Positions 345-8,611 are shown, counted from the stretch's first letter. The stretch is DNA of 33,848 nt from Bacteroidota bacterium (GCA_006227105.1 SBFR01000062.1:1-33848), one strand, 5' to 3'. Numbers and translations: made by a program. The notes: generated by a model from the letters alone, not told the origin.

Positions 345-449
345 GGCTACTGAAACCAATATTAGGTAAAATCATTTGAAAGTCGAAATTAACACGCATC
401 GTCTTTCAAATTTCATAGATCAAGATGCATTTGTTACCTTCGTTTCGGT

Positions 450-1790
450 ATGAGAATAATAAGACCACTAATTACACTGACCTTTTTAATTCAGGTTTCA
501 TTTTCAATTTCTTTTTCGGCAAATGGAAACTTGCCAAGACAGCTTGAGTGCAGGAATGTGCATGAATCATGGTTGACTTTTGCTTTCGACCTGACAAGAA
601 ACACAGTAGGGTTTTCTGCTCCGGTAAGCGCAAGAGCGTATGCGTATTTGTCAATAACCAGTTATGAAAGTACAGTTGAGGTTTATGAAGATCTTCAAAG
701 CATTTCAGGGCAATTGAATGGTTATACGAGATCTAAATGGGCCTCCAAGAAGGAAAGAAAAAAACTGAATTGGCCTATTGTCGCGAACGCAGCTGATAAG
801 TATATGATTGATTATCTGTATAGAGGAATGCCTCCTTCGTACAAAGAGAAAACAGATCGTCATTTTGATTCTTTGAAAGCATGTTATGCGCTAGGGTCAT
901 CTGATAAAGTGATGAATATGTCCATGGAATATGGAAGAATGATCGCACAGGAGATCTTGAACTGGTCGAAAACAGACTTGGGAGATGAGGGGTATCTGAA
1001 TAATTTTCCGGAAGACTTTGTTCCTGCTGAATGTGAAATGTGCTGGACGAAAACGACTCCCGGTTATTTACCTTCTTTAGTTCCTCATTGGGGAGATAAT
1101 AGACGACTAATTGAAGGAGATTTCAAGATTGTAGAATCATGTAAACCAGTTAATGTTAATCTTGAGAAAGACGGGTGGATCTATAAAGATGCGCTGGAGA
1201 TCTACCAATTGAATTACAGTGAAAATAAGGACCTGGAGATCATAGCAGAATATTGGAATGATGCACCTGGATATTCAGGGACACCTGCAGGACATTTATT
1301 CTGTCTGGCAATCCAAGTTTCAAAAAATAGCCAGGTTTCAGCTTCTGAAGCAATGGAGTTATATGTCAAGCTGGGAATATCGTTGAATGAGGCATCTGTG
1401 AATAGTTGGAAATTGAAGTATACTTACAATTTGTTGAGACCTATAACTGTCATTCACAGAATGATCGATAATCGTTACAATACAATTATCGACAGTCCTC
1501 CATTCCCGGAGTTTCCTTCTGGACATTCATTTCAGTCTGGGGCTGCCAATGCCGTCTTTAATTCAATTTTTGGAGAGAATTACTCATTCATCGATTCAAC
1601 AATGTTATACAGAAGAGATATAGTAAACACCCCAAGAAACTTTAAATCCTTCAACGACATGGGGGAAGAAATATCCATTTCAAGATTGTATGGTGGAATA
1701 CATTACAGGACAACTTTGGATGAGAGTCTAAAATACGGAAGAATTCTGGGGCAATACATTGTGAGTCAGATCAAATGTCGAAAAGAATGA
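450..1790 (+). CDS. Vanadium-dependent haloperoxidase-like / PAP2-superfamily protein, exported
   Basis: Signal peptide-like N-terminus. Motifs K-x6-R (KYTYNLLRP), PSGH (FPEFPSGHSFQSGAA) and R-x5-H (SRLYGGIHYR), with the spacing of the vanadate/phosphate pocket of this superfamily. Confidence 0.88.
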   Translation: MRIIRPLITLTFLIQVSFSISFSANGNLPRQLECRNVHESWLTFAFDLTRNTVGFSAPVSARAYAYLSITSYESTVEVYEDLQSISGQLNGYTRSKWASKKERKKLNWPIVANAADKYMIDYLYRGMPPSYKEKTDRHFDSLKACYALGSSDKVMNMSMEYGRMIAQEILNWSKTDLGDEGYLNNFPEDFVPAECEMCWTKTTPGYLPSLVPHWGDNRRLIEGDFKIVESCKPVNVNLEKDGWIYKDALEIYQLNYSENKDLEIIAEYWNDAPGYSGTPAGHLFCLAIQVSKNSQVSASEAMELYVKLGISLNEASVNSWKLKYTYNLLRPITVIHRMIDNRYNTIIDSPPFPEFPSGHSFQSGAANAVFNSIFGENYSFIDSTMLYRRDIVNTPRNFKSFNDMGEEISISRLYGGIHYRTTLDESLKYGRILGQYIVSQIKCRKE

Positions 1791-3406
1791 TAAAAGTCCT
1801 TCCTATATCATTTTGTCTTTTTACGACTTTTTGGCTTAGTGCACAGACGTGGTTTCAAGAAGTAAGTGATTCTGTAGGTTTGTCTTATATCTATCCCGGA
1901 AATGAATTTCAAATGGCCGGTGGAGGATTAATGATCATTGATGTGAACAACGACGGATGGGAAGATCTGTATCAATCAGGCGGAGTATTCGAGTCAAAAC
2001 TTTGGCTCAATGAAAGTGGAAAATTCGTAGACAAAACTGAAGATTTTGGATTGAATGTTCTTGAAGGATATTTTATCCAAGGTGCACTTTCGGCAGATTA
2101 CAACAATGATGGTTTTACAGATTTTGTAGTGCTTAATTATGGGAAAGGAATGGGGAGAGGGGATAAAAGGTCGCCGGCATTATTGAAAAACATAGAGGGA
2201 AAGAAATTTGAATTGATCGATCTATCGGAATACATAGAGCCTGGAAATTATTCAAGTGGTAGTTGGGGAGATATTGATAGAAACGGTTTTCCGGATCTTT
2301 ATCTGACGAATTATGTGGAATCAATGGGGGGATTAATGGATGAAAAGGGAAGGGAAATAGGTTATGACCCAGTTTGTTTTGAAAACAGATTGTTAATGAA
2401 TATCGATGGTGTGAATTTTATCGAATCATCAGAAAAATATAAAGTAAACGATGCCGGATGTGGCTTGGCTGCAAGCTTGACAGATGTAGATCAGGATGGA
2501 GATCAGGATTTATTGCTCTTGAATGATTTTGGCGAATGGACTAACAACGGAAATCACTATTTCAGAAATGAATTTCCTAAACCATTTTTTCAGGATGTTT
2601 CTTTAGAAAAAGGATTTGACGTTAAAATGTATGGGATGGGAATTGGTCAGGGAGATGTCGATAAAGACGGAGATCCCGATTATTACATTACCAATATTGG
2701 TAAAAATTATTTGTATTACAATTCAAAAGGAGACTTTACGGATAGATCAACAGAGTTGGGAGTAGATTTAACCTTTGTAAAAGATTCATTAAGGGGTACT
2801 AGTTGGAGTGGATTGTTCTTTGATGCTGATTTCGATGGAGATTTGGACCTCTTTGTTTCAAAAGGTAATGTTTTGACCTTAGTTCCAAGAACTTCCGTGA
2901 AAGACGAAAACAAATTCTTTCTTCAAGAAGATAACAAATTCATAGATGGCTCTTCGGCTTCAGGATTGAATGATTTTTTATCGCACAGGGGCTCAGTGAT
3001 CACAGATTTCGATCATGATGGCGATCTGGATATTATTTCCGCAGTGGTTAAACTACCCTGGGCGGCATTCGCAAAGACAGAACAGAAGATCAAGTGTTTC
3101 AGAAATGATCTGCCCACTGGAAACTGGATAGGTGTTGAGCTGAAGGGTGACGGAAAGAACATTAACAAAGATTGTTTTGGATGCTCAGTCGTTTTTCATG
3201 ACCAGGGAGGAAAATCGTTCAGAGAAGTTGATGGAGGCAGTGGGCAAGCATCACAATCGGGAAGAGTGATTTGGTATGGGTTAGGAGATAAAAAGACGCT
3301 TGAAAGGTTAGATGTCCATTTTCCGGGTCTTACAAAAATGGAATTTGAAAACTTGAAGTCAGGAAATATTTATAAGATTTCGCCTGATGGAACTATTGGT
3401 TTTTAA
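1775..3406 (+). CDS. CRTAC1-like FG-GAP/VCBS repeat protein with C-terminal ASPIC/UnbV domain
   Basis: Signal peptide. Seven Dx[DN]xDGxxD-type repeats (DVNNDGWEDLY, DYNNDGFTDFV, DIDRNGFPDLY, DVDQDGDQDLL, DVDKDGDPDYY, DADFDGDLDLF, DFDHDGDLDII). C-terminal GNWIGVELKGDGKNINKDCFGCSVVFHDQGGKSFREVDGGSGQASQS...VHFPG is UnbV-like. Overlaps the upstream CDS by 16 nt. Confidence 0.88.
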   Translation: MSKRMIKVLPISFCLFTTFWLSAQTWFQEVSDSVGLSYIYPGNEFQMAGGGLMIIDVNNDGWEDLYQSGGVFESKLWLNESGKFVDKTEDFGLNVLEGYFIQGALSADYNNDGFTDFVVLNYGKGMGRGDKRSPALLKNIEGKKFELIDLSEYIEPGNYSSGSWGDIDRNGFPDLYLTNYVESMGGLMDEKGREIGYDPVCFENRLLMNIDGVNFIESSEKYKVNDAGCGLAASLTDVDQDGDQDLLLLNDFGEWTNNGNHYFRNEFPKPFFQDVSLEKGFDVKMYGMGIGQGDVDKDGDPDYYITNIGKNYLYYNSKGDFTDRSTELGVDLTFVKDSLRGTSWSGLFFDADFDGDLDLFVSKGNVLTLVPRTSVKDENKFFLQEDNKFIDGSSASGLNDFLSHRGSVITDFDHDGDLDIISAVVKLPWAAFAKTEQKIKCFRNDLPTGNWIGVELKGDGKNINKDCFGCSVVFHDQGGKSFREVDGGSGQASQSGRVIWYGLGDKKTLERLDVHFPGLTKMEFENLKSGNIYKISPDGTIGF

Positions 3407-3407
3407 G

Positions 3408-4484
3408 TTAGAACGATTCCCCAAAACTTACGTAAAAACCGCTTTGTCCGTCATTCCCAATGGCATAATCAAACCGAAGATTCGTGTTTTCATTTTTATC
3501 TACTTTAATTCGGAGACCTACGCCTGCATTTGGACGAATATAGGTTCCGAATGTTTCGGTATTGTGATACAGGGTTGAGATACCGGCGAATCCTGAAAGA
3601 CCAAACCATTTGTATAATGTGTACCGATATTCCATCTGGACCGTTGACAATGAAAGGTCTCGAAAACGACCAAAATAATAACCCCTTACCAATTTGTCTC
3701 CTCCTAACAATGCAATGTCAAAGAAAGGTGCGTTCGAGGTGTTCAGAACTGTATATGCTCTCCCCGAAAAAGTATGATTCTTCTTTTTACCTAGTGTGTG
3801 ATACTTCCTGAGATCCAAGGAGAATTGAGCATATACACCATTCGCAGTTGAAAGTTCTGCATTGTAAAATCTCATATAATATCCATTGGTAGGGGTAAGA
3901 ATGCTGTTTCTTTTGTCAATAAGATATTGCAACTGGAGACCCAAAGCACGAGCATCAATTAATTCTTGAAATGGGATTATCATATCCGTTAACGAGGCAA
4001 CATCCCAGTAGTCAACATATTTCAGTCCTCCACCGAGGAAATGTCCTTTTGAAACTTGTCGAAGTAGATTCAGATCAATTTTTGCTCTGTTGCTCTGATA
4101 ATTGAGTTCATTGGTGTTTATTGTATTTGGTCCGATGCCGTAATACAAATCCGGAAACTTTGAGAAATGAAGAATACCGTTCGTAAACCATTTTTCTTCC
4201 TTGAAAAAGTAATTCCATTCCGCTTCAGCAATGAATTGTTTGCGCATTGTGTAGTTCAATTCAACTTTTGCGTTGGACGTTCTCGTTAAAGAATCCTGAT
4301 AAAAATTCATTTGAAACAATGCGACAGCGCCAAAATAGAATTTAGTTTCAGGGCTGTAACCTAATGCTGGAACCGGTAAGATTTTAATTTTTTTCGTCTT
4401 TCTTTCAGTTATGCTGTCTTGCGAATAACATAACGGCATGACAATTAAAAATGAGAGAACAAATATGCCAGCAGTTCGGATCAT
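3408..4484 (-). CDS. Omp85/BamA-TamA superfamily outer-membrane beta-barrel protein, apparently without POTRA domains
   Basis: Signal peptide followed almost directly by a barrel (ILPVPALGYSPETKFYFGAVALFQMNF...). VRGY-type loop motif (LLGGDKLVRGYYFGRFRD). Amphipathic strands to a C-terminal Phe (FYVSFGESF). ATGA overlap with the upstream minus-strand CDS. Confidence 0.8.
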   Translation of the reverse strand: MIRTAGIFVLSFLIVMPLCYSQDSITERKTKKIKILPVPALGYSPETKFYFGAVALFQMNFYQDSLTRTSNAKVELNYTMRKQFIAEAEWNYFFKEEKWFTNGILHFSKFPDLYYGIGPNTINTNELNYQSNRAKIDLNLLRQVSKGHFLGGGLKYVDYWDVASLTDMIIPFQELIDARALGLQLQYLIDKRNSILTPTNGYYMRFYNAELSTANGVYAQFSLDLRKYHTLGKKKNHTFSGRAYTVLNTSNAPFFDIALLGGDKLVRGYYFGRFRDLSLSTVQMEYRYTLYKWFGLSGFAGISTLYHNTETFGTYIRPNAGVGLRIKVDKNENTNLRFDYAIGNDGQSGFYVSFGESF

Positions 4485-5920
4485 TTCTTAAGAATTCCAT
4501 TTTCATATGGTCCTAAATAACCTGGCCAGGAAACGTTCAGATCTTTATATGGCAAAGAAATAGACTCAATTATACTGTATTGATCGAAACCTTCCATTGG
4601 TAAAGATGAGGTTCCTATGATCAGTTCCATTTTACCATCATTGTCGCTATCGACAAGGGAAGGTGAGGAAGCCATAGATACTCCAGGTCTAACGTTACCG
4701 ATGAAATAGTTGGAATTATCGTTAATGTCGACCACTCTGACTTGATTTACCGTGGTGAATTTCTCTTGGTCAATTAGTGTGTTGTGAACATAGATCAATT
4801 CATCAATTCCATCATGATCAATGTCAGCTGAAACTCCAGGAGAATACTGATTAAATCCAGTTTCTTCTGAGTAGATCGTCGACCCGTCCTTGCCATCCAG
4901 TACGATCAATTTAAAGGAAGAATACATCGGGAATGAACCGAAAGCCAAAATAGTAAAGACATCAGGTATTTTATCTTCGTTGAAATAGCCAAATGAAGGG
5001 GTGACGTAGCATTCATATCCTTCGTGTTCTTTTTGCCAGATGTTTCTGTTATTGGCGATATCCACGGCTGTGATTTTCCCACTCATGTGAGCTACCACAA
5101 GGTCGTCATGTTTGTCACCGTTGAGATCTGCCAAAATTGAATTCAAAATGATCCCTTTAATTTCATCTTTAAGCAACAACTTGGAATTTTTCATTTTTCT
5201 TTTGGACAGGTCTGTGAAATCAACCGACCAAAGACTACCGTCAACTGTTTCTCCTCCAGACGCATAAATGATCTTGATGTTTCCTTCGGAATCAATAATC
5301 GTATGTGGGGCATAATACGATTCTCGGTCCTCATGAAAGCTTACATCATTTAAAATATCTCCATTTTTTCCTGAAAGGATCATGATCCGGGCAGCAGGTC
5401 TCTTTTTTTGATTAGGAAGCGCCAGGTAATCTCCTCCGTTAGTAACCAGAAGGTCTTTATAACCATCTTTGTTCTGGTCTTCAACCCATTGTGTGCAGAA
5501 GAAGTTTAGCCATCCCGCTTTTCTAGGATCTGCGTTTTTTTCTTTCCAGAATTCCCACAGAATTTCTCCAGTTGCTCCGTTAATTGACATGAAACAAGCT
5601 TCTCTACCTCCAATGAAAACGTCCATAATACCATCGCCGGTGATATCTTGAAAGAGTGCGCTAGTGTATAGTTGCGATCTTGATGGAGCTTCCCATAATA
5701 ATTGACCATTTTTTCCATCAACAGCAATGACAGCATGTTGTGTGTATTGATGCTCTAAACCTCCACCGATGATTACATCCAGAACCCCGTCTTTGTTTAG
5801 GTCTGTAAATCTTGGAGAAGAAAAAATACTGGCAGAATCAACCTTTAAGCTCCAATTTGTTGACTGTCCAAAGCAAGCGAATGCTAATGAAAAATAAAGC
5901 AAAACAATAGTGTACCTCAT
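4481..5920 (-). CDS. Exported FG-GAP / PQQ-like beta-propeller protein
   Basis: Signal peptide (MRYTIVLLYFSLAFACFGQS). Repeats DLNKDGVLDVIIGG, DITGDGIMDVFIGG, DQNKDGYKDLLV, DIDHDGIDELIY, DSDNDGKMELIIG interleaved with PQQ-like strands (AVDGKNGQLLWEAP, SINGATGEILWEFW). Confidence 0.85.
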   Translation of the reverse strand: MRYTIVLLYFSLAFACFGQSTNWSLKVDSASIFSSPRFTDLNKDGVLDVIIGGGLEHQYTQHAVIAVDGKNGQLLWEAPSRSQLYTSALFQDITGDGIMDVFIGGREACFMSINGATGEILWEFWKEKNADPRKAGWLNFFCTQWVEDQNKDGYKDLLVTNGGDYLALPNQKKRPAARIMILSGKNGDILNDVSFHEDRESYYAPHTIIDSEGNIKIIYASGGETVDGSLWSVDFTDLSKRKMKNSKLLLKDEIKGIILNSILADLNGDKHDDLVVAHMSGKITAVDIANNRNIWQKEHEGYECYVTPSFGYFNEDKIPDVFTILAFGSFPMYSSFKLIVLDGKDGSTIYSEETGFNQYSPGVSADIDHDGIDELIYVHNTLIDQEKFTTVNQVRVVDINDNSNYFIGNVRPGVSMASSPSLVDSDNDGKMELIIGTSSLPMEGFDQYSIIESISLPYKDLNVSWPGYLGPYENGILKK

Positions 5921-5989
5921 GATTAAACTTTCATCAAAGGTACCTTAAATCTTAATAATTGATAAGGCGATCAGATCAATTACACATGA

Positions 5990-6469
5990 TCAGTGAAGAT
6001 CAAAAGACCTGGTCAAGTCTCTGCTTATACCTGCCGAATGACAGCTAATACAACTGCTTCCTTTATCGGAGACACTATAGGCAACATCTCCATTTGGTTT
6101 ATATTCTCCCCAAACCCAGTTTTCTCCTTGAAATTTCGATTCACTGTCTTTCTTCATTACTACATAAAAAGTAAGCTCTCCCCCTGAATAGACTTCTTTG
6201 ACGATGACAGAACCATTCGAGAATTCTGCTCCAACCGGAAGTTTACCATCAGCTCCTAAAGAAGATACCGCAGTACTATTGAATTTTAGCTTGAAACTTC
6301 CATGTGGACTACCACCGGCTCCAGAATAAAGCGTGTCTTTATTTTTATAAAACTGAAGGTCAGTAGCTTTTGCTGCTTCGTAAAGTTCTTCATTCAATTT
6401 TTTCTTCTGGCAGGAAACAATTGTCAGTAGTGATATGCTCAGAATAAGTGCTTTGTTAAAAATGTTCAT
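5990..6469 (-). CDS. Cytochrome P460-like lipoprotein with one c-type heme motif
   Basis: Lipoprotein signal (LLTIVSCQKKK). P460-like pattern PHGSFKLKFN...GAEFSNGSVIVKEVY...FYVVMKKD...WVWGEYKPNGDVAYSVSDKGSSCISCHSAGISRDLTRSF with CxxCH. Confidence 0.82.
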   Translation of the reverse strand: MNIFNKALILSISLLTIVSCQKKKLNEELYEAAKATDLQFYKNKDTLYSGAGGSPHGSFKLKFNSTAVSSLGADGKLPVGAEFSNGSVIVKEVYSGGELTFYVVMKKDSESKFQGENWVWGEYKPNGDVAYSVSDKGSSCISCHSAGISRDLTRSFDLH

Positions 6470-6601: not shown

Positions 6602-8611
6602 ATGAATAAGGATCAGGCGCTGGGTAGGATCAATTTTCTTTCTGAAGAGATCGAAAAGCATAACCATTTGTATTACGTCGTAAATCAACCAGAAATTTCT
6701 GATTACGATTTTGATGTGCTCCTTAAGGAACTTGAGGCTCTTGAAGCACAATTCCCGGAATTTGCATCCGAACATAGCCCTACAAAAAGGGTTGGGGGTG
6801 ATATCACCCGAAAATTTGAAACTGTAGTTCATCGTTTTCCAATGTTATCCCTTTCAAATACGTATTCTGAAGAAGAAATTCAGGATTGGGAGAACAGGAT
6901 CAAAAAGTCGATTGATGAAAAGGTCGAATATGTTTGTGAGCTCAAATATGATGGCGTAGCAATTGGGATTCGATACCAGAATGGTTTACTGACTAGGGCT
7001 GTTACTCGAGGTGACGGAACTCAGGGCGAAGATGTAACGAACAATGTAAAAACCATTCGTTCTGTACCCTTGAAATTGAAAGGAGACTTTCCTGAAGATT
7101 TTGAGATCAGGGGAGAGATCTTTATGCCATTGACGAGGTTTTTGAAGCTGAATGCTGAACGGGAGGAGAATGGAGAACAGTTGTTTGCTAATCCAAGGAA
7201 TACAGCTGCCGGGACACTGAAAATGCAAGATTCAAAAATTGTTGCAGAGCGTGGGCTGGATTCCTATTTATATGGTTTTTACGCGGAAACAAATCCATTC
7301 AAGGGGCATTTTGAAGCAGTTGAAACAGCTTTAGATTGGGGGTTCAAAGCGCCGACACCTAAAAATAGATTGATTGAAAAGACAGATTCCATTGCGGGGA
7401 TCATGGACTTTATTCATTACTGGGATAAACACAGAGATGATTTACCTTTCGAAATAGATGGGGTTGTCATCAAAGTGAATGACTACGGAATTCAAAAGAA
7501 ACTTGGATTTACGGCCAAATCACCCAGATGGGCAATTGCCTTCAAATTTAAAACAGAGAGAGTAGAGACCCAACTTGAAAGTGTTACCTATCAAGTTGGG
7601 AGAACCGGTGCAATTACACCAGTTGCAAATTTGAAACCTGTTCAGCTAGGTGGTACCACGGTTAAAAGAGCATCATTACATAATGCTGATCAGATCGAAA
7701 AACTGGATCTACATGAGAGTGATTATGTGTACGTCGAGAAGGGTGGAGAGATCATACCTAAGATTGTGGGAGTAAACCTTGAGAAAAGACAGCCAATTGC
7801 AGGAAAGCTTATTTATATTTCGGCGTGTCCGGAATGCGGATCAGAACTGATACGAAGAGAAGGAGAAGCACAACATTTTTGTCCGAATGAGAAAGGTTGT
7901 AGCCCTCAGATCAAAGGAAGGATCGAGCATTTCATTTCGAGAAAGGCAATGAATATCGAAGGATTAGGAGCTGAAACAGTCGATATGCTCGTTGAAAGAA
8001 ATATGATCTCAAATTATGCGGATCTGTATGAATTGACCTATGATCAAGTTTTACAAATGGATCGTATGGCCGAAAAGTCTGCGGAAAATTTGATCAGCGG
8101 AATAAATGCATCTCGAGATGTACCATTTGAAAGAGTGCTATTCGCTTTGGGGATCAGGTATGTCGGTGAGACAGTAGCTAAAAAACTGGCGAAATATTTC
8201 AAGAATATGGATGCACTGATGAGTGCGAGTTACGATGATCTAGTCGCTGTTGATGAGATTGGAGAGCGAATTGCAATTTCAATCCAGCAATTTTTTCTTG
8301 ATGATTATAACAAGGGGCTGGTTGAACGTTTGAGATCCTATGGTCTTCAATTTGAGTTAAAAGAAAAAGAAGGAGCCAGCAATGTTTTGGAAGGGAAAAC
8401 GTTTGTAGTAAGTGGTGTTTTTAATGCTTTTTCCAGAGAAGAGATCAAAGAGGTTATTGAAATGAATGGGGGAAAGAACGTTTCCTCAGTTTCATCCAAG
8501 ACCGATTATCTTCTTGCAGGAGATGGGATGGGACCGTCCAAGTTGAAGAAAGCGACCGATCTGGGAGTAAAGATCCTTTCAGAAGATGAATTTATTAAAA
8601 TGATAGGATGA
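6602..8611 (+). CDS. ligA: NAD-dependent DNA ligase LigA
   Basis: Full-length 669 aa. HNHLYYVVNQPEISDYDFD; active-site CELKYDGVAIGIRY (KYDG); Zn-finger CPECGSEL...HFCPNEKGC; HhH repeats; C-terminal BRCT (LEGKTFVVSGVF). Confidence 0.98.
   Translation: MNKDQALGRINFLSEEIEKHNHLYYVVNQPEISDYDFDVLLKELEALEAQFPEFASEHSPTKRVGGDITRKFETVVHRFPMLSLSNTYSEEEIQDWENRIKKSIDEKVEYVCELKYDGVAIGIRYQNGLLTRAVTRGDGTQGEDVTNNVKTIRSVPLKLKGDFPEDFEIRGEIFMPLTRFLKLNAEREENGEQLFANPRNTAAGTLKMQDSKIVAERGLDSYLYGFYAETNPFKGHFEAVETALDWGFKAPTPKNRLIEKTDSIAGIMDFIHYWDKHRDDLPFEIDGVVIKVNDYGIQKKLGFTAKSPRWAIAFKFKTERVETQLESVTYQVGRTGAITPVANLKPVQLGGTTVKRASLHNADQIEKLDLHESDYVYVEKGGEIIPKIVGVNLEKRQPIAGKLIYISACPECGSELIRREGEAQHFCPNEKGCSPQIKGRIEHFISRKAMNIEGLGAETVDMLVERNMISNYADLYELTYDQVLQMDRMAEKSAENLISGINASRDVPFERVLFALGIRYVGETVAKKLAKYFKNMDALMSASYDDLVAVDEIGERIAISIQQFFLDDYNKGLVERLRSYGLQFELKEKEGASNVLEGKTFVVSGVFNAFSREEIKEVIEMNGGKNVSSVSSKTDYLLAGDGMGPSKLKKATDLGVKILSEDEFIKMIG

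Follow-up and report, generated by a model that had tools for sequence, protein, structure and literature searches.

Within a stretch of 33,848 nt from a marine Bacteroidota bacterium (GCA_006227105.1 SBFR01000062.1:1-33848; the whole stretch is hereafter called the window), five consecutive genes for exported or envelope proteins occupy positions 450 to 6,469. Judged from gene content and gene order across genomes, the core unit among them is a pair formed by an exported enzyme of the vanadium haloperoxidase (VHPO) type and a CRTAC1-like propeller protein, which in the Crocinitomicaceae is joined by a second propeller as a frequent third and by a POTRA-less Omp85 barrel as an occasional fourth member. 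All five open reading frames (ORFs) are as an earlier note on this DNA had described them, and each family assignment was confirmed by Pfam. The functional linkage that the note had guessed at turned out to be much stronger than foreseeable for the VHPO and the CRTAC1-like protein, within a core that is smaller than five genes.

Pairing of VHPO and CRTAC1 genes

In a survey of 399 genomes of the order, using thresholds of at least 38% identity for the VHPO and at least 45% identity for CRTAC1, the VHPO was found at 18 loci in 17 genomes, and the set of genomes with CRTAC1 is identical to these 17. The CRTAC1 gene lies directly 3' of the VHPO gene at 18/18 loci, mostly overlapping it or only a few bases apart. 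A lack of conserved pairing beyond two genes, which the earlier note had named as the sign that would speak against its module, is seen only outside the Crocinitomicaceae; within this family, three genes stand together at 10 of the 18 loci.

The pair extends far beyond this family. A collection-wide scan was carried out with a VHPO alignment, whose relatives are named as Fluviicola and as Crocinitomicaceae metagenome-assembled genomes (MAGs), and at 67 of the 80 best-scoring loci a same-strand gene matching the CRTAC1 profile was present directly beside the VHPO gene (13/13 in Crocinitomicaceae and 54 in other bacteria). Going by their record titles, the latter 54 are nearly all from Pseudomonadota, with one labelled only 'bacterium' and one MAG labelled Exiguobacterium, and CRTAC1 comes after the VHPO in 36 of them and before it in 18 betaproteobacterial loci. 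Besides the pairs, the 1.2 Mb of fetched sequence contained no further match to the CRTAC1 profile, and each of the 17 pair-carrying non-Bacteroidota genomes sampled (among 18 genomes reached through the loci) has a single ASPIC domain, located at the VHPO locus. Algoriphagus, in which the VHPO is unpaired, has seven ASPIC domains elsewhere in its genome. Among 200 Rhizobiaceae genomes, 28 carry a close VHPO (at least 59% identity to the L192 query) and an ASPIC domain is found in 28/28, at a distance of 1,371-1,444 bp from the VHPO in 27 of these and with the VHPO at a contig edge in G513. Of the 172 Rhizobiaceae genomes without a close VHPO, 58 contain ASPIC proteins as well, and the domain is thus not exclusive to VHPO.

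In addition, FG-GAP propellers are fused ahead of distant VHPOs of the same order in proteins of 1,157 (L233), 1,337 (L232) and more than 2,000 amino acids (L231), the last of which includes UnbV_ASPIC. A motif scan detected K-x6-RP in all of these fusions, SGHS and SR...GGIH were seen in the alignments of L231 and L233, and type IX sorting tails are present on two of three tested FG-GAP-VHPO fusions. Two further distant VHPOs (L134 and L135) adjoin FG-GAP proteins of 1,100 amino acids; a domain scan of that in L134 showed UnbV_ASPIC. As the fused and FG-GAP-adjoining enzymes are distant from that of the window, what they suggest is a repeated association and not orthology. At L229, L230 and L232, long multidomain VHPO proteins are encoded next to one another, and some of them carry type IX sorting tails.

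Given that the pair recurs side by side, and more loosely as fusions, in unrelated bacteria, the VHPO and the CRTAC1-type protein very probably work together. That the two are merely co-inherited, as a selfish or accidental cassette of two genes without a shared biochemical function, seems quite improbable to us. The block that carries the pair in the window is an insertion/absence polymorphism, and pairs are found in varied genomic contexts, as in mobile cassettes; however, the linkage is kept through the reversal of gene order in betaproteobacterial loci, the FG-GAP-VHPO fusions and the exact co-presence speak for more than shared inheritance, and no transposase, integrase or end repeats accompany the block.

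Both families also have other neighbours. In other families, distant VHPO lipoproteins have immediately downstream a conserved lipoprotein of ~115-132 amino acids, apparently a different VHPO partner (L081:10940-11332, L082:4834-5232, L083:4263-4658 and L084:10991-11338); the two copies compared with Pfam gave no match. CRTAC1-type genes unlinked to VHPO (L223, L224 and L225) lie near a conserved ~500-amino-acid gene with an N-terminal membrane helix, which is possibly a sensor.

The two proteins and their proposed function

The VHPO of the window matches Pfam PAP2 at 27.6 bits (cut-off 27.2), and among solved structures it is closest to the iodoperoxidase zgVIPO1 of Zobellia galactanivorans (4cit, 4usz), to which it gave a full-length phmmer match (residues 17-447 of 4cit, E 1.3e-53). 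4CIT is listed among the biochemically characterised VHPOs (PMC13198595). The two enzymes have in common full-length homology, the vanadate ligands, export and an origin in Bacteroidota, whereas an extra CxxCW motif (195-199), invariant in the Crocinitomicaceae enzymes (14/14 aligned pairs), is absent from zgVIPO1. The Crocinitomicaceae enzymes are also accompanied by a dedicated propeller gene, the comparison with zgVIPO1 having been made at the protein level. The vanadate ligands K323, R330, S357, H359, R412 and H418 are invariant in 67/67 paired VHPOs, and G358 is invariant in the 13-member alignment. Hydrophobic N-terminal signal sequences, as judged by eye, are carried by both the VHPO and the CRTAC1-like protein across phyla. 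A search for plasmid-borne copies of this VHPO subfamily returned only distant VHPOs with 24-29% identity to the window enzyme.

The CRTAC1-like partner comprises FG-GAP_3 (80.6 bits) and UnbV_ASPIC (28.8 bits, cut-off 23.4) according to Pfam. Its AlphaFold model has a predicted local distance difference test (pLDDT) score of 89.6, and the best PDB match in Foldseek is murine CRTAC1 (9etn), with a template modelling (TM) score of 0.73 by query and E 1.9e-29. The FG-GAP propeller with UnbV_ASPIC and the overall fold are thus those of the CRTAC1/ASPIC-UnbV family, but the bacterial protein is secreted and tied to a VHPO, lacks a Pfam EGF domain and is only about 18% identical to the murine one. 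Its paired Asp positions fit FG-GAP calcium loops, and cysteines 201 and 229 are nearly universal in the partners. A CxxC at 467-470 is present in 11 of the 14 CRTAC1 partners of the aligned Crocinitomicaceae pairs, and neither this motif nor the CxxC of the VHPO occurs in 53 aligned pairs outside that family; we speculate that the two might form a common metal or disulfide site. The nearest parallel found is that of CRTAC1-family genes adjoining genes for hydrazine-synthase-like subunits, in an order that varies between clades (PMC12758564). There too a CRTAC1-type FG-GAP gene lies beside redox enzyme genes, although the enzyme and the bacteria are different and no VHPO is involved.

Taken together, export, an intact vanadate pocket, an iodoperoxidase as the nearest structure and a strictly linked propeller of the calcium type speak for an exported haloperoxidase that has its own scaffold, activator or substrate protein. 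With modest confidence, we therefore read the VHPO as a putative exported enzyme of halide oxidation and the CRTAC1-like protein as its dedicated, calcium-binding partner, the halide chemistry being suggested by the family and the complex by the linkage. The VHPO would bind vanadate and, with H2O2, oxidise bromide or iodide beyond the inner membrane. The CRTAC1-type protein would bind the VHPO, or present or be its substrate, and would thereby fix the site at which reactive halogen is released. In Crocinitomicaceae, the eight-bladed propeller, sometimes together with the POTRA-less Omp85 barrel, might plausibly retain the complex at the outer membrane or hand it on there.

Several points weigh against this proposal. 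The sequence of a PAP2-fold protein alone cannot separate a haloperoxidase from a phosphatase, and the block contains no source of H2O2. The 80 loci were taken as the best-scoring ones and are no random sample, and 13 of them are unpaired (eight in Chloroflexi, three in Deinococcales, one in Algoriphagus and one in a Spirosomataceae), which suggests that these VHPOs do not need the partner. In the VHPO tree, the paired enzymes fall into three clades with unpaired clades between them, so that pairing was lost or gained several times. Across 67 pairs, the distances of VHPO and CRTAC1 are correlated with r 0.87 (0.82-0.86 within groups); this speaks against a frequent exchange of partners, but the correlation is confounded by common descent. 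The CRTAC1 tree, the root of which is ambiguous, places the Crocinitomicaceae partners nearer to Bacteroidota CRTAC1 proteins than to the Pseudomonadota partners. The pair may have originated either in an ancient linkage with losses or in repeated assembly.

The main rival is an exported phosphatase of the same fold that would dephosphorylate sugar phosphates or phosphorylated glycans, the propeller binding the glycan and the freed sugar being imported. It owes this place to the XylF-type binding-protein genes that lie within 3 kb of the VHPO at 17 of the 67 loci outside Crocinitomicaceae (raw count). Outside Bacteroidota, CUT2 sugar ATP-binding cassette (ABC) transporters and ROK regulators dominate the neighbours; the VHPO and the XylF-type gene share one operon at L183, L189, L185 and L216, a permease and an ATPase are present in L206, and L191 contains genes of galactonate-type sugar catabolism. 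Apart from CRTAC1, the structure that best matches the fold of the partner is a sugar dehydratase, and matches were also obtained to lectins and to a rhamnogalacturonan lyase. The motif set KX6RP, PSGH and SRX5H is shared with the PAP2 acid phosphatases as well. Nevertheless, we consider this role rather unlikely, as the nearest relative of known structure is an iodoperoxidase that aligns along its full length, no acid phosphatase is among the nine PDB sequences matching the VHPO, no sugar transporter was seen beside the pair in Crocinitomicaceae among the ORFs identified, and the genomes concerned are rich in sugar transporters. When five of the XylF-type binding proteins were tested, TIGR02634 (xylF) was the best match in all and above its cut-off in one. 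The VHPO genes lying in the same direction beside XylF-type transporter genes are from Pseudomonadota (L183, L189 and L206) and Deinococcales (L185 and L216), and the two Deinococcales loci are without CRTAC1.

A more general and doubtful reading is that the VHPO and the CRTAC1-type propeller might constitute a general bacterial two-component exported enzyme system, assembled more than once in either gene order and as fusions, in which the propeller would steer an oxidising enzyme to carbohydrate; related VHPOs in Pseudomonadota and Deinococcales would then serve sugar acquisition beside XylF-type transporters.

As far as we are aware, the physiological role of bacterial VHPOs has not been settled outside natural-product pathways, and most CRTAC1-type proteins of bacteria lack an assigned function. 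Both families are known, and their partnership seems to be undescribed in the open literature searched, in which, with most subscription journals lying outside it, no haloperoxidase together with CRTAC1, UnbV or FG-GAP was found. The strict pairing gives each of the two families a testable partner. It also offers a handle on the role of the VHPO in Rhizobiaceae, Comamonadaceae and relatives of Rhodobacter, because related loci adjoin sugar transporters.

The accessory block and its optional members

The features of the locus are as follows.

450..1790, plus strand: exported vanadium-haloperoxidase-type VHPO/PAP2 protein, 446 amino acids, Pfam PAP2; core member
1775..3406, plus strand: CRTAC1-like FG-GAP/ASPIC propeller, 543 amino acids, FG-GAP_3 and UnbV_ASPIC; core member
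3408..4484, minus strand: POTRA-less Omp85-type outer-membrane barrel, 358 amino acids, Pfam Omp85 only; optional member
4481..5920, minus strand: FG-GAP/BamB-like eight-bladed propeller, 479 amino acids, Pfam FG-GAP/FAM234-type; frequent third member
5990..6469, minus strand: cytochrome P460-like c-haem lipoprotein, Pfam Cytochrome_P460; chromosomal backbone, outside the module
365..5988, no strand: accessory block, 5,624 bp, present here and in G012, with ~56 bp in its place in G013

The VHPO and CRTAC1-like genes overlap by 16 nt and the propeller and barrel genes by 4 nt, and the converging CRTAC1-like and barrel genes end 1 nt apart (3406/3408). The locus is flanked by an MFS gene, truncated by the contig end, and by ligA, which starts at 6602. 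No RNA element was found in the first 9 kb of the window.

Exactly four genes, namely those for the VHPO, the CRTAC1-like protein, the Omp85 barrel and the propeller, make up the accessory block, and the P460 gene belongs to the backbone, because G013, a genome of the same genus, has the same flanks without window 365-5988 and reads MFS, P460, ligA. In a blastn comparison with G013:C204, the flanks are 93.1% and 94.1% identical and the breaks lie at 364 and 5989. The earlier suspicion of an accessory insertion between the MFS gene and ligA is thereby located precisely, whereas the envelope module of five genes does not hold, as P460 stays at the empty site beside MFS and ligA and adjoins no other VHPO pair among those examined. 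The P460 protein itself matches Cytochrome_P460 (PF16694) at 40.4 bits (cut-off 27), combines a lipobox-like N-terminus (IVSCQKK) with a C-terminal CISCH haem motif, and shares 98-99% identity with its counterparts in G012 and G013. In G012 the block is arranged as in the window but split over two contigs, with window 2605-3315 uncovered. Since the VHPO occurs in only three of the 26 genomes of the genus, and at a different site in one of them (G008), a gain of the block in the lineage of the window genome (G000) and G012 is the simpler reading, a loss in G013 being the possible alternative.

A transposon, integron or phage cassette was considered and rejected: the ends of the block have no 6-mers in common, direct or inverted (no repeats of at least 6 nt), its G+C content of 0.384 shows no shift from the mean of 0.391, and it gives no PHROGs or PADLOC match, nor did these searches reveal an anti-phage or phage-borne module. 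An ancestral P460-MFS-ligA arrangement in the genus is unsupported; a ~290-amino-acid gene, PrmC-like in the one tested, precedes ligA in most other genomes of the genus, and the MFS-P460 neighbourhood is thus lineage-specific.

The second propeller (AlphaFold pLDDT 83) is closest to BamB and pyrroloquinoline quinone dehydrogenases, a likeness at the fold level only, and scores 19.7 bits against the BamB equivalog TIGR03300, below the cut-off of 285. Module-type homologues (at least 44% identity) are present in 11 genomes and adjoin the VHPO-CRTAC1 pair in 10 of them, G320 being the exception (Fisher p about 8e-15, uncorrected for phylogeny). At seven loci the gene points away from the VHPO, and at three it converges with CRTAC1, so that its proximity to the pair outlasts its orientation; eight of the 18 Crocinitomicaceae loci are without an adjacent second propeller, one of them (G363) on a short contig. 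The barrel matches PF01103 at 57.5 bits over residues 73-358, with no POTRA match, and reaches 58.8 bits against NCBIfam Omp85_fam, below the cut-off of 200. Four genomes (G000, G012, G322 and G212) have it linked to the module.

It seems very unlikely to us that the four proteins form one secretion-coupled system, in which the Omp85-like barrel and a BamB-like propeller would export the VHPO and the CRTAC1 protein across the outer membrane. In its favour, the overlapping propeller and barrel genes also adjoin in L126, and propeller-Omp85 (WD40-Omp85) fusions as well as Omp85 proteins without an N-terminus ('noNterm') have been described (PMC4104836). The present proteins share with these the POTRA-less barrel and the association of a propeller with an Omp85 barrel, but are encoded by separate overlapping genes that are optional additions to the VHPO block, the likeness being one of domain layout. 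On the other hand, the barrel is missing from 14 of the 18 family loci and from all 54 non-Bacteroidota pairs, barrel homologues of 28-46% identity are common in genomes without VHPO, and the Foldseek likeness of the propeller to BamB is low (TM 0.45 by query length), with a barrel that has no POTRA for a BamB-like partner. A decayed barrel remnant (62% and 46% identity, with stops), followed by a C-terminal propeller fragment, is found in G002 (L080:9481-10192) and agrees with a barrel-propeller unit; no VHPO or CRTAC1 is near it.

Lastly, most of the 88 genomes of the order that have a propeller match contain a paralogue of the second propeller of ~950 amino acids (L093:8891-11734; 31-37% matches), which in the copy tested bears SprB repeats and ends in a type IX sorting tail; the module-type propeller is present in only 11.

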